Shown here one piece after another: positions 21,002 to 27,497 of a stretch of 64,000 nt of DNA. The notes under the pieces are model-generated. The model was given only the letters and a program-made list of their open reading frames with translations. It was not told the DNA's origin and did not search any database. Source of the stretch: Chrysosporum bergii ANA360D (GTDB lineage Bacteria > Cyanobacteriota > Cyanobacteriia > Cyanobacteriales > Nostocaceae). Where the stretch lies: assembly GCF_029891735.1 (NCBI RefSeq), contig NZ_JANQDH010000051.1, forward strand, positions 1 to 64,000, given 5' to 3'. The position numbers were made by a program, and so were the translations under genes. Position 1 is the first letter of the stretch; each line of letters begins with the position of its first letter.

Positions 21002-22681
21002 CTAACCTTGGGGTATATGCGTGTATATCCCTTGACCTTTAGTATCATAAATAAATACTGGCATCCGGGCATTATCACCAATTGCACTTAGGGCTTCTTG
21101 TAAAATATACCAGTGGTTGGTGGTTTGCAAGTCCGACTCAGATAATGTGGTTTCAAGCACTCGTTCATAATCAGGGGTCAAGGAGACGGCAATGCCGCTA
21201 TTATTAATAGTAAAAGTGCAAACCCGAATTTCTCGAACACAGGTTTTATCCAAGTCTTGACCAACCTTTTGCCAATTAATAATGCTTTGCAGCTGTTCTT
21301 GTGCTTGCTCGAGGGCGGTAGAGTAAGTTACCACCAGATTTTGAGATTGATTGTAATAAAAAGTATTTTTAGCAACTTGTTTGGCACTTTGTAAAGCCTG
21401 TTCCCAGTATGTAACTGCTATCTGCCACTGGTTGTTTTGCTCGTAGGTTTTGGCTTGATCAGCAGTGTTCATGGCTTGTTGATAGCTTCTAGCTGCTATT
21501 TCTTCTGTGGTGGCGCGATCGCGTGTCCTTGCTAGTTGGAGTTGGTAGTTTAACAACAATTTTTGTGCCTCTGGGTATGCTGGGCTATTGGGGGGAATCA
21601 TATTTAACCCATTAATCACCACTTGCCAGGTAGATCGTGCTTTTTGCCAATCGTTTACAGACTTAGCGGTGGCTGCTCGCTCCTGGGCTACAATGGCTAC
21701 AGCTTCGGCATCATTAAGTTTTTTCAGCCATTTTTCCTCGGTAAGTAACTGTTGATTTACAGTTTGCAAACTCACCCGAAATTTTGACAATCTCGGTTTG
21801 ACTAGCCCATAGAGTTCGTCGGTGGGGGGTATAGCTTCTAGTGGTGCGATGGCTTGTCGCCATGAATGCTGGATACTTGTTAGTTCCTCTGTACTAGTGA
21901 CAGGAGTTTGCATTTTTTTCTCTGCCACATTTGCCACTTGTAATGCTGTGATCACCTGGTTAATTTTGTCTGAGTGCATAGACAAACTAGTTTTTAATTC
22001 CTCAGCCTGTCGGTAACGGGGTGACCAACGGGGAATATTACCCAGATTGGTGCTAACTGTTTTGAGTTGCTGTTGTATTGCTACTAGTTGATTTTCCTCT
22101 TTAATACTACCGATGAGTTGTCTATATTTCCAGTTTATGCTTAGGGCTGTTTGCATTTCTTGGCACTCCAACATGACACAAGGACGAGTGAGGAAGTAAA
22201 AACCACTACCAAAAACACAAATTCCTAACAAAATTATTCCTAGCAGCAGAGACTTAACAGGGCGTTGTGGTGGGGTAGTCCACAAATCTGGTGGATCTGG
22301 GAAACAATCAAATATTTCTTCTGGTTCGTTTTCTATGGTAGATGGAATATGGATCAAAGAAGAAGAAGTTATTTCTTCCTGTGGCTGGATAATATAGGAA
22401 CATCTAGCATAAGGCAGTTCTTGCCCAAGTATTCTGATAAAGCATTGCACTTGCTGGTCTCTGTAGGTGGGTAATGATTGGAGTGCTTGTTTAAGCACCA
22501 CAAAGATATTTTGACCATCAACAGTCACTTCCTCTGGATGTTGAGTTAAAATCATAAGCTGGTCTTTTTTGACAGCACATTTAATTTGGAAGACTTCACC
22601 AGAGGGAACCTTGGCAAGAACCTGTTCTTGCAAAGTTATTGCTAAAAGTTGTAAGTCTTCCTGCTGAACTGCTACTTTCAT
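21002..22681 (-). CDS. Large protein with one membrane segment and helical repeats, unknown
   Basis: The 559-residue protein has an N-terminal globular region (about 1-115), a single membrane segment (about 146-166; LLLGIILLGICVFGSGFYFL) and a long helical region with TPR-like modules (for example WQKARSTWQVVINGLNMIPP and WQIAVTYWEQALQSAKQVA). The C-terminus (about 470-559) is globular. Placement suggests a cytoplasmic head and an exported, or oppositely placed, helical scaffold. I do not recognise a named family. It is separated from the divergent SCS-like genes by 480 bp. Confidence 0.65.
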   Translation of the reverse strand: MKVAVQQEDLQLLAITLQEQVLAKVPSGEVFQIKCAVKKDQLMILTQHPEEVTVDGQNIFVVLKQALQSLPTYRDQQVQCFIRILGQELPYARCSYIIQPQEEITSSSLIHIPSTIENEPEEIFDCFPDPPDLWTTPPQRPVKSLLLGIILLGICVFGSGFYFLTRPCVMLECQEMQTALSINWKYRQLIGSIKEENQLVAIQQQLKTVSTNLGNIPRWSPRYRQAEELKTSLSMHSDKINQVITALQVANVAEKKMQTPVTSTEELTSIQHSWRQAIAPLEAIPPTDELYGLVKPRLSKFRVSLQTVNQQLLTEEKWLKKLNDAEAVAIVAQERAATAKSVNDWQKARSTWQVVINGLNMIPPNSPAYPEAQKLLLNYQLQLARTRDRATTEEIAARSYQQAMNTADQAKTYEQNNQWQIAVTYWEQALQSAKQVAKNTFYYNQSQNLVVTYSTALEQAQEQLQSIINWQKVGQDLDKTCVREIRVCTFTINNSGIAVSLTPDYERVLETTLSESDLQTTNHWYILQEALSAIGDNARMPVFIYDTKGQGIYTHIPQG

Positions 22682-23161: not shown

Positions 23162-24412
23162 ATGGATTTATTGGAGTATCAAGTTAAGGAATGGTTGAGG
23201 ATAATAGGCATTCCTGTATTGCCTTGCCAAAGAATTGACCATCCTACAGATTTGAAACGTTTAACAATTCGCTATCCCATTGTTCTCAAGTCACAAGTAT
23301 ATGGCGGGGAAAGAGCAAAAGCCGGTGGAGTCAGGTTTGTAGAAACAACAATTGATGCGATCGCTACGGCACAAATGATGTTTAATCTGCCAATTTGGGG
23401 CGAATTACCCGAAGTTTTACTGGCAGAATCTAAATATATTCCTGAGCAAGAATTTTATCTGGCAGTAGTTTTAGACACTGCCGTTTGCCGACCAGTGCTT
23501 TTAGGCTGCACAGAAGCTAATATTGATTGGGAATCCCCAGGGGCAAAAATGCAGCACGTTGTGGTTGAACAAGAATTTTCTCCGTTCTATGCAAGGCGAC
23601 TGGCATTAAACATGGGTCTGCAAGGTAGATTAATGCAGTCTGTTAGCTGCATTGTGGAGAAGATGTACCAATTATTTGTACAAAAAGATTTAGATTTGTT
23701 AGAAATCAATCCTTTGGGGGTGAGTGCATCTGGTGAAGTGATGGCTCTTAATGGTAAAGTCAGTATCAATGAACGCGCCATTGGTCGCCACCCGGAATTA
23801 GGGGAAATAGCAGTAAAAATAGCTAACCGTCATAGTAGAAATTCAAGCAATGGTAAGTTAAGGAATGACGATGAGTTAAAACTGCAAGGTAAAATTGGCA
23901 TTCTGGGCAATGGTACTGGTTCAATTATGGCTACCTTAGATTTAGTCACTAACGCTGGGGGTAAGCCGGGTAGTTGTTTAAACCTACGCCATGCTTTTAT
24001 CACGGATGTTGTCCCTACCACCTTCTGCCATCGTCTGAGGAAAGGCCTAAAAATTTTAGCTGCTGATAAAAGTATTCAGGTTATCCTGCTCAACCTCATC
24101 GGTAGCATACCTCAGACTGAGGAAGTAGCGGAAATTATTAGCAATTTTGCCCAACATGAAAAAAGCAGAATTAACTCAGCAACTATCAAACCCAGCAGCA
24201 AAAGTCTTACAGAGTCTCATTGTCCGCGATTGGTTGTGCGAATTGTTGGTTCTGAGTTCAATGTGACTCAGAATATTTTAGCTACTTTAAACAGTCAAAC
24301 CGATGCTCTGACAGTATTAGAAAATTTAGATGAAGCAGTAGCAGTAGCCGTTCGTCTGAGCAAAATTATCACAAGGAACTGCAAAGTCAACTCAAACGAG
24401 AAACTTATATGA
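23162..24412 (+). CDS. Succinyl-CoA synthetase beta-like (ATP-grasp) subunit, divergent
   Basis: The 416-residue protein starts MDLLEYQVKEWLRIIGIPVL, the usual SucC beginning, and has YGGERAKAGGV and LDLLEINPLGV in the ATP-grasp domain. The C-terminal CoA-ligase part is altered: where E. coli SucC has FLDVGGGAT, this protein has CLNLRHAFI. It overlaps the alpha-like gene by four bases (ATGA), so the two should be translated together. The role is uncertain because the partner lacks the phosphohistidine. It could be a divergent succinyl- or other acyl-CoA ligase, or a non-catalytic paralogue. Confidence 0.75.
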   Translation: MDLLEYQVKEWLRIIGIPVLPCQRIDHPTDLKRLTIRYPIVLKSQVYGGERAKAGGVRFVETTIDAIATAQMMFNLPIWGELPEVLLAESKYIPEQEFYLAVVLDTAVCRPVLLGCTEANIDWESPGAKMQHVVVEQEFSPFYARRLALNMGLQGRLMQSVSCIVEKMYQLFVQKDLDLLEINPLGVSASGEVMALNGKVSINERAIGRHPELGEIAVKIANRHSRNSSNGKLRNDDELKLQGKIGILGNGTGSIMATLDLVTNAGGKPGSCLNLRHAFITDVVPTTFCHRLRKGLKILAADKSIQVILLNLIGSIPQTEEVAEIISNFAQHEKSRINSATIKPSSKSLTESHCPRLVVRIVGSEFNVTQNILATLNSQTDALTVLENLDEAVAVAVRLSKIITRNCKVNSNEKLI

Positions 24413-25287
24413 ATTTAACCCCAGATAGCAAAGTATTAATTTACGGATTTTCTGAATTCATCACAGCAACTCATGTTACTCAAATGAAGGCTTATGGGAC
24501 AAATTTAGTTGCTGGTGTCAATCCTGGATATGGTGGACAGCAACTATATAACTTACCAATCTTCGATTTGGTTGAAGAGGTAGTGGCAAAATTTGGAGCA
24601 ATTGATACAGCGATTATATGCGTACATCCCTATGAAGTTTTAGACGCAGCATTAGAAACAATGGCCTCCAAGATTAACCAAATTATCATCATTTCTGGTG
24701 GTGTGCCACCGTTGGATATGGTGAAATTACTTCGTAAAACTGAAGCCACAGAGACTTTGATAGTCGGTCCCAACAGTCCAGGAATTATTGTACCAGGAAA
24801 GATTCTTTTGGGTACTCAACCCAGGGAATTGTATACACCGGGTGGCGTAGGAATTGTTAGCCGTAGCAGTACCCTCACTTATGAAGTTGCTTGGGAACTA
24901 ACTAAAGCTGGTTTGGGGCAATCAATTAGTGTCAGTATTGGTAGTGATACCATTGTTGGATCATCGTTTTTGCAATGGCTGCAAATTCTGGATGAAGATG
25001 AAACCACAGAAGCGATCGTTTTAGTCGGTCAACCCGGCGGCGATAGCGAAGAAGCCGCAGCGCGATATATTACTGAAGCAATTGATAAACCAGTAGTTGC
25101 TTACATTGCAGGTAGACACGCAACAACCGCAAAAAATTGGGGACAAAGTGGCACTTTAGCCACAGTGATTGGACGTAAACCGAATTTTGGCACAGCACAA
25201 AGTAAATTAACTGCTTTTAAAAAAGCCAAAGTTCCAGTAGCTGATCGTCCTTCTGCAATTCCAGAATTACTGAAACTCCCCGCTTGA
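24409..25287 (+). CDS. Succinyl-CoA synthetase alpha-like subunit lacking the active-site histidine
   Basis: The 292-residue protein matches SucD along its length (GPNSPGIIVPGKILLG, GVGIVSRSSTLTYE, PVVAYIAG). In E. coli SucD, His246 (MGHAGA) carries the phosphoryl group and Glu208 (GEIGG) supports it. Here the same positions are Gln246 (WGQSGT) and Gln208 (GQPGG). Both changes were read directly. Normal phosphoryl transfer through this subunit is therefore unlikely. It is coupled to the beta-like gene by an ATGA overlap. What reaction remains, if any, is unknown. Confidence 0.75.
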   Translation: MNLTPDSKVLIYGFSEFITATHVTQMKAYGTNLVAGVNPGYGGQQLYNLPIFDLVEEVVAKFGAIDTAIICVHPYEVLDAALETMASKINQIIIISGGVPPLDMVKLLRKTEATETLIVGPNSPGIIVPGKILLGTQPRELYTPGGVGIVSRSSTLTYEVAWELTKAGLGQSISVSIGSDTIVGSSFLQWLQILDEDETTEAIVLVGQPGGDSEEAAARYITEAIDKPVVAYIAGRHATTAKNWGQSGTLATVIGRKPNFGTAQSKLTAFKKAKVPVADRPSAIPELLKLPA

Positions 25288-26568: not shown

Positions 26569-26940
26569 CTAATTAGCCTGGTTGATGAACCTAACCGCCT
26601 CTCTTTGTGCTGTTTGTACCTCAGCCCGGCAAGTTGTACCTTGTTGACTCAAACCAAATCTGTCTACACACTGACCAGTTAAATCTGTGGCTACGCTATT
26701 AATTTCTCCAAAAGTTGTATTTCTATCAATTGTTGTAGTAAAACCTAATGAGGGGACTCTGAGAGTCAAAGTACTAGGACTAGGACTAGGACTAGGGGAA
26801 CTCCCTCCCCCAAAAGTAGGAGTAGGGGTAGGAATAGGTCTATCAGACGTATTACTTGATGTACCACCACTACAAGAACTAATCATTACACAGATCATCA
26901 AAATTCCCACAAGCTCACGGGAGGCTAAATTTTTTGACAT
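26569..26940 (-). CDS. Small lipoprotein A with Pro-Ser/Thr linker
   Basis: The 123-residue product has a lipoprotein signal (MSKNLASRELVGILMI, lipobox ISSC at about Cys23), then a linker of P-T and P-S repeats (about 36-56), then a small domain (about 57-123). That domain has two cysteines in GQCVDRFGLSQQGTTCRAEV, which may form a disulfide. Its leader and 5' DNA are nearly identical to lipoprotein B 504 bp away, but the C-terminal domains are unrelated. Function is unknown; it is probably anchored in a membrane and exposed. Confidence 0.75.
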   Translation of the reverse strand: MSKNLASRELVGILMICVMISSCSGGTSSNTSDRPIPTPTPTFGGGSSPSPSPSPSTLTLRVPSLGFTTTIDRNTTFGEINSVATDLTGQCVDRFGLSQQGTTCRAEVQTAQREAVRFINQAN

Positions 26941-27497
26941 AAACTTAATCTCACAACGTTATATTTATTACAGGGGGCTGAAACAGAGTTTTCCCAGTAA
27001 GACTCCTATTTGATTTTTGAAAAAAACTCAATGTGCTGTTACTGATTTTTTCGTGTTCGTTCCCTGTTTCCTGTCTCTACGAGTAATTTCAGTAATCAAA
27101 CGTGATTTGTAAATTGATTATCTATCTCTAAAAGCAACTGGGATACTAGAGCCATCTGGCCGTCTCCTCGGACCAAATTCACATCTTCCTCTTGAACCAT
27201 CACTAAAAGTTCTCCGAGGAATCGGGGTCGAGGAATCTTGACAATCACTCCTGTATTGTTGCCATTCTAGTTCTGCTCTTTCAGAAGGACTAGGACTAGG
27301 ACTGGGACTAGGACTAGGAGTAGGACTAGGACTGGGACTAGGTCTATTAGACGTATTACTTGATGTACCGCCACTACAAGAACTAATCATTACACAGATC
27401 ATCAAAATTCCCACAAGCTGACGGGGGGCTAAATTTTTTGACATAAACTTAATCTCACAACGTTATATTTATTACAGGAGGCTGAAAGAGAGTTTTC
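26837..27497. repeat. Direct duplication covering two lipoprotein leaders
   Basis: About 155 bp at 26837-26992 recur at 27341-27497 (offset 504 bp) with roughly seven mismatches. The repeat holds about 65 bp of 5' sequence and the first 35 codons of each gene. Outside it, the two genes share only the hexamer-encoded Pro-Ser linker (units like GGACTA on the plus strand). Confidence 0.8.
27118..27444 (-). CDS. Small lipoprotein B with Pro-Ser linker
   Basis: The 108-residue product shares its lipoprotein leader with gene A (MSKNLAPRQLVGILMI, lipobox ISSC). A Pro-Ser repeat of about 20 residues leads to a different, basic C-terminal domain (about 55-108) with two cysteines (RSDCQD and RGRCEFG). 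The linker is encoded by degenerate 6-bp repeats, so gain or loss of units stays in frame. Function is unknown; it is probably exported and lipid-anchored. Confidence 0.75.
   Translation of the reverse strand: MSKNLAPRQLVGILMICVMISSCSGGTSSNTSNRPSPSPSPTPSPSPSPSPSPSERAELEWQQYRSDCQDSSTPIPRRTFSDGSRGRCEFGPRRRPDGSSIPVAFRDR

Follow-up and report, generated by a model that had tools for sequence, protein, structure and literature searches.

In ADP-forming succinyl-CoA synthetase, His246 of the alpha subunit (SucD, E. coli numbering) carries phosphate from the ATP site in the beta subunit (SucC) to the CoA site in the alpha subunit. The positions discussed below as binding CoA, succinate and Mg2+ are those that we take to have these roles from the E. 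coli enzyme and UniProt annotation. ATP-citrate lyase and citryl-CoA synthetase belong to the same superfamily as the pair described here, at 23–29% identity only, and differ from it in that the wild types use a phosphohistidine. FdrA-type proteins (3dmy) share an alpha-like fold and a distant sequence match, but are very distant and have another architecture and other partners.

Most of the open papers that we found annotate cyanobacterial SucCD as active. When sucCD was deleted in Synechococcus PCC 7002, the mutant failed to grow under sparging with 2% CO2, and succinate and malate fell to ~60% in the light and 40% in the dark; the authors attributed this phenotype to the missing succinyl-CoA synthetase (Zhang et al. 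2016, PMC5160925). SucCD "probably" carries out the reaction according to Mills et al. 2020 (PMC7133116), and two reviews describe the succinyl-CoA ligase as replaced or absent, leaving the genes undiscussed (PMC11546870, PMC7582838). In Synechocystis, the SucC and SucD proteins are detected at levels that change with trophic state (PMC9175036), and their transcripts drop under nitrogen depletion (PMC4295605). The open-access literature searched yielded neither an assay of a cyanobacterial pair nor a mention of the missing histidine.

A SucC–SucD pair with an altered active site

The window, the whole 64,000-nucleotide stretch that was analyzed, is cyanobacterial. It encodes a SucC-like beta subunit of 416 amino acids (23162–24412, + strand) followed by a SucD-like alpha subunit of 292 amino acids that lacks Glu208 and His246 (24409–25287, +). 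The beta stop and the alpha start share the 4 bp ATGA (24409–24412, +), making this a coupled two-gene unit, and the adjacency and overlap suggest an alpha–beta heteromer. The initial annotation had proposed looking for a second, canonical pair; none was found by a PF00549 search of the whole genome (3.9 Mb in 120 contigs).

Against NCBIfam SucD the alpha subunit scores 271 bits (E = 1e-80), below the cut-offs of 353 and 336 (TIGR01019 and NF004230), and against SucC the beta subunit scores 187 and 180 bits (E = 6e-55), below 370 and 376 (TIGR01016 and NF001913). Pfam scores for beta are 93 bits for PF08442 and 20.9 bits for PF00549, the latter under its 24.5 cut-off; the ATP-grasp_2 domain is kept and the CoA-ligase domain is degraded. 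Despite these sub-cut-off scores both proteins are unmistakable SucC/SucD homologues, and by descent they certainly belong to the succinyl-CoA synthetase superfamily. Both subunits are also predicted to have the SucC/SucD fold. The AlphaFold model of alpha (pLDDT 89.5, with residues 241–253 below 50) matches Thermus (3ufx_A) and E. coli SucD with a TM of 0.91. The beta model (pLDDT 85, pTM 0.56) is SucC-like in pieces, its best matches all being SucC at a TM of ~0.5 with a domain placement that differs or is uncertain; both are single-chain models.

With the ADP-forming enzymes of E. coli (1JKJ, 2SCU) and Thermus (3UFX) the pair shares fold, subunit pairing, the sucC–sucD gene order and alpha Tyr159, and in the beta ATP-grasp domain Lys46, Arg54, Glu99, Glu107, Glu197 and Asn199 are all kept. 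Only Asp213, a Mg2+ ligand in E. coli, is changed there, to Asn (Asn197 of the window protein; codon 23750–23752, +). Alignment to E. coli SucD places LVGQPGG opposite MIGEIGG and KNWGQSGT opposite KRMGHAGA, so that Glu208 is Gln208 (codon 25030–25032, +) and phospho-His246 is Gln246 (codon 25144–25146, +), the latter within the poorly modeled loop 241–253. The two glutamines are thus where, and what, the initial annotation had said. The CoA-phosphate loop reads SEFI (GFSEFITATH) instead of TGSQ and so departs from the T17-G18-x-Q20 pattern, Lys43 is Tyr (NPGYGG) and Thr97-Glu98 is Ser-Gly (ISGG). In beta, the GGGA run (E. coli 290–293) is missing, as had also been noted: a loop, LRHAFITDVVP (23984–24016, +), takes its place, giving LNLRHAFITDVV instead of LDVGGGATK. 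The loop G320-G321-I322-V323-R324 (GGIVR) has become GSIPQ, and Asn264 is kept. An earlier statement that the surrounding motifs are preserved holds only for SxTLTYE and GPNxPG, not for the CoA loop, Lys43, Glu98, beta GGIVR or Asp213.

Substitute histidines were considered at H237 (in GRHATT), H22 and H73, none of which is fully conserved or at the active site. H237, raised at the outset as a possible stand-in, is present in 46% of the family and lies nine residues away. Sequencing error is ruled out by 56 concordant relatives. Judged by these residues, the pair would fall outside succinyl-CoA synthetase as an enzyme. Because Gln246, Gln208, the changed CoA loop and beta D213N cut the phosphate chain at several points, the pair very probably has no succinyl-CoA synthetase activity of the known mechanism.

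Divergent from sucC, at 21002–22681 (−), lies a gene for a 559-amino-acid protein with one apparent membrane stretch, a long and probably helical part, and no Pfam match. Its homologues are found divergent beside sucC in seven families (f1, f4, f7, f8, f15, f21 and f22) and near alpha in two (f9 and f12), and it is a possible functional partner of the pair. It does not serve as a marker of histidine loss, since the linkage is also seen in a His-keeping family. Further downstream, two adjacent short lipoprotein-like ORFs (26569–26940 and 27118–27444, −) are almost the same at their N-termini (MSKNLA.R.LVGILMICVMISSCSGGTSSNTS), contain low-complexity Ser-Pro stretches, and look like a recent tandem duplication.

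Distribution and independent losses across cyanobacteria

Some 135 loci were fetched from across the phylum, and in these the loss of Glu208 and His246 is widespread, extending well beyond the window. In the window's family (f1), residue 208 is Gln in 56/56 members and residue 246 is His in none of the 56 (52 Gln and one each of Lys, Glu, Thr and Asn), while beta D213N is found in 52/52. Outside this family, residue 213 is Asp in nearly all cyanobacteria, and D213N could weaken ATP binding specifically here. The alpha gene is present in 57 of the 59 genomes of the family, with frames open throughout; the other two (G001 and G013) have no full-length alpha, and one of them, 89% complete, is the only sampled congener. 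Scytonema NIES-4073 has Gln at both positions, as in the window.

A second clade (f4, f7, f8, f13, f15, f16 and f19–f23) carries Gln, Arg, His or Pro at 208; residue 246 is usually Asp or Asn, also Glu, with Asp the commonest, and the betas of this clade have nearly the full ATP-grasp set (K46, R54, E99, E107, E197, N199 and D213). It includes Synechocystis, Picosynechococcus, Crocosphaera watsonii WH 8501 and the endosymbionts of the diatoms Epithemia and Rhopalodia. Alignment to Synechocystis had been suggested as a check on the window, but the contrast this implies does not exist, as the Synechocystis relatives, among them PCC 6714 (G411) and PCC 7338 (G100), are also without the residues. 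For PCC 6803, the published qPCR primers for sucD (sll1557; PMC4295605) lie on either side of residue 246 and fit Synechocystis loci reading GAKIKRHFGDSLTIVANQ, with FGDS at the site and Asp246. The Picosynechococcus genus group has Arg208 and Asp or Asn246 in 6/6 genomes (including PCC 7117, G084, and PCC 7003, G107), and it is from these six congener genomes that PCC 7002 itself is presumed to be His-less. Identical plasmids link G411, G100, G084 and G107 to their strain names. Three diatom endosymbionts (L141–L143) with reduced genomes and chromosomes of 2.8–3.1 Mb keep a His-less alpha with beta adjacent, which hints at a function not tied to photosynthetic growth.

Many cyanobacteria keep both residues (f2, f5, f6, f9, f10, f18 and f24–f28), and some members may therefore be active. 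Their CoA loop, Lys43 and beta GGGA/GGIVR loops are mostly changed nonetheless. Such His-retaining pairs (f2, f5, f10, f18, f28 and others) are orthologous to the window's and show similar alterations of the CoA loop and the beta C-domain, but differ in keeping Glu208, His246 and Asp213. Families f36–f47 have canonical alpha residues and the canonical ATP-grasp set; as they lie outside the class and their proteins are canonical, we infer that these are the non-photosynthetic members. In these relatives T17, G18, K43 and the beta GGGA and GGIVR loops are canonical, with minor exceptions at R324, whereas in photosynthetic cyanobacteria, including most His keepers, they are altered.

The beta residues K46, R54, E99, E107, E197 and N199 are near-invariant, even beside a barely recognizable alpha. 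The alphas of one family (f14, L113–L118) have 26–38% identity to the window's, are degenerate at nearly every site and are unlinked from beta; the f14 betas retain the whole ATP-grasp set. In the small-genome families f30 and f31, full-length alpha is absent. The two genes are adjacent in most loci and unlinked in Synechocystis PCC 6714 and PCC 7338 and in f14; linked or not, both subunits were present in 20/20 genomes checked.

A tree was built from the alpha and beta ATP-grasp alignment with columns 208 and 246 excluded. The window's family forms a joint clade with its sister family f18 (100/100 support), and since f18 keeps Glu208 and His246, the residues were lost on the stem of the window's family. 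The second His-less clade is placed elsewhere (100/99 support), and the minimum number of changes on the tree is four for His and two for Glu. Constraining all 43 His-less rows, including the singletons L081 and L126, to one clade was rejected (p-AU 2.8e-6), as was uniting the two main His-less groups without these singletons (p-AU 5.5e-10). The loss of Glu208 and His246 was independent in at least two large groups. His246 is also missing from the singletons L081, L126 and L030, but L126 has an insertion at this place and none of the three was counted as firm. L031 (f12), which lies at the base of the second clade, combines His208 with an intact His246, suggesting that in this clade Glu208 was lost before His246.

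In the window's family, pairwise dN/dS values are 0.045–0.13 for alpha and 0.07–0.23 for beta, similar to the His-keeping lineages (0.06–0.11 and 0.10–0.16, respectively). Within alpha, the segment around residue 246 (236–262) has a conservation of 0.67, compared to 0.80–0.91 for the core; a lower value is seen in the C-terminal tail alone (0.62). Residues 1–120 of beta are the best-conserved part of the pair across clades. This pattern points to the beta ATP-grasp pocket as the site that has been retained.

The metabolic setting is the same for both states. Above the cut-offs, the 2-oxoglutarate:ferredoxin oxidoreductase subunit KorA was found in 0/56 genomes and the 2-oxoglutarate dehydrogenase (2-OGDH) E1 in 0/52. 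A methylmalonyl-CoA mutase (MCM) domain match was seen in 1/56; the usual sources of succinyl-CoA are thus essentially absent, in His keepers and losers alike. A tie between histidine state and any of these sources gave no signal. Their absence is consistent with a weaker demand for the reaction, although it leaves the retention of His in some lineages unexplained.

Possible functions of the His-less pair

With its residues lost at least twice and the genes still under strong selection, this cyanobacterial gene pair, labeled succinyl-CoA synthetase, probably does a different job. The initial annotation had suggested a new reaction or a structural or regulatory role, and the conservation of the pair, purifying selection and repeated loss of the residues agree with that direction; the choice among the three is beyond what sequence can decide. 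We consider it fairly likely that the SucCD-derived complex is either a nucleotide-dependent regulator or a new ATP-dependent enzyme, arising after at least two losses of the phosphohistidine. The preferred reading, a nucleotide-binding regulatory or scaffold role, is given roughly an even chance. The pair would be a former ADP-forming succinyl-CoA synthetase in which the phosphohistidine reaction is presumably no longer possible. The alpha–beta complex would bind ATP or ADP in the ATP-grasp pocket that beta has kept, and may act as a non-catalytic regulator or scaffold in carbon and nitrogen metabolism. It would have been released from its former function when the 2-oxoglutarate dehydrogenase route to succinyl-CoA was gone.

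The main rival, new catalysis, is possible but rather unlikely. The intact ATP-grasp domain would drive some other ATP-dependent reaction, on an acid, an amine or a protein, with alpha as the remodeled acceptor site. Outside the window's family E197, N199 and D213 are essentially invariant, beyond the obvious needs of ATP sensing, and in the second clade Asp246, as the commonest residue, could itself be the phosphoacceptor. The alpha-like homologue FdrA, whose function we presume to be a different one, would be an earlier example of this fold with another reaction. However, in the window's family Gln246 and Gln208 cannot accept phosphate and D213N removes a Mg ligand, and segment 236–262 is poorly conserved compared with most of alpha, with 241–253 modeled at low confidence. 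Joint action of the subunits may not even be needed if they are kept as moonlighting partners of unrelated complexes, for example alpha alone. The genomes with unlinked genes and a GatB–SucD crosslinking model in the PDB (9a6e) are consistent with this, but both subunits persist together in every genome checked and are adjacent in most loci, and we regard it as improbable.

The nucleotide-binding complex must also be weighed against two further readings. A succinyl-CoA synthetase that works through another phosphoacceptor or by direct transfer would account for the retained fold and pairing, but no conserved replacement histidine is found at the site, and the CoA loop and Lys43 are lost too. 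In E. coli, E208Q reportedly stops phosphorylation from the succinyl-CoA side. We take Glu599 of ATP-citrate lyase to be equivalent to SucD Glu208. The PDB contains an engineered lyase with the counterpart of E208Q, the laboratory mutant E599Q (6uuw). The PCC 7002 deletion does lower succinate and malate (PMC5160925), which is equally expected from losing an active synthetase; even so, residual activity of this kind is hardly to be expected. Still less probable is a functionless relic in slow decay. Active-site residues have been lost progressively, and alpha is missing from G001, G013, f30 and f31, but the alpha dN/dS of 0.05–0.13 indicates that the genes are not decaying. The frames are open throughout, 57 of the 59 genomes in the family carry the gene, as do the reduced endosymbionts, and the PCC 7002 deletion has a phenotype (PMC5160925).

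Papers and proteome studies on Synechocystis and PCC 7002 take SucCD to be the synthetase between succinyl-CoA and succinate (PMC5160925, PMC7133116, PMC9175036). If the His-less SucCD is inactive in that reaction, their flux models include an absent step, and something else must account for the effects of the PCC 7002 deletion on growth and metabolites. The pair offers a clean natural case of catalytic residues repeatedly lost from a conserved enzyme complex, with close residue-keeping relatives for comparison. If the complex has indeed become a regulator or a new enzyme, the textbook SucCD step of cyanobacterial TCA models would be nonexistent in the His-less lineages.
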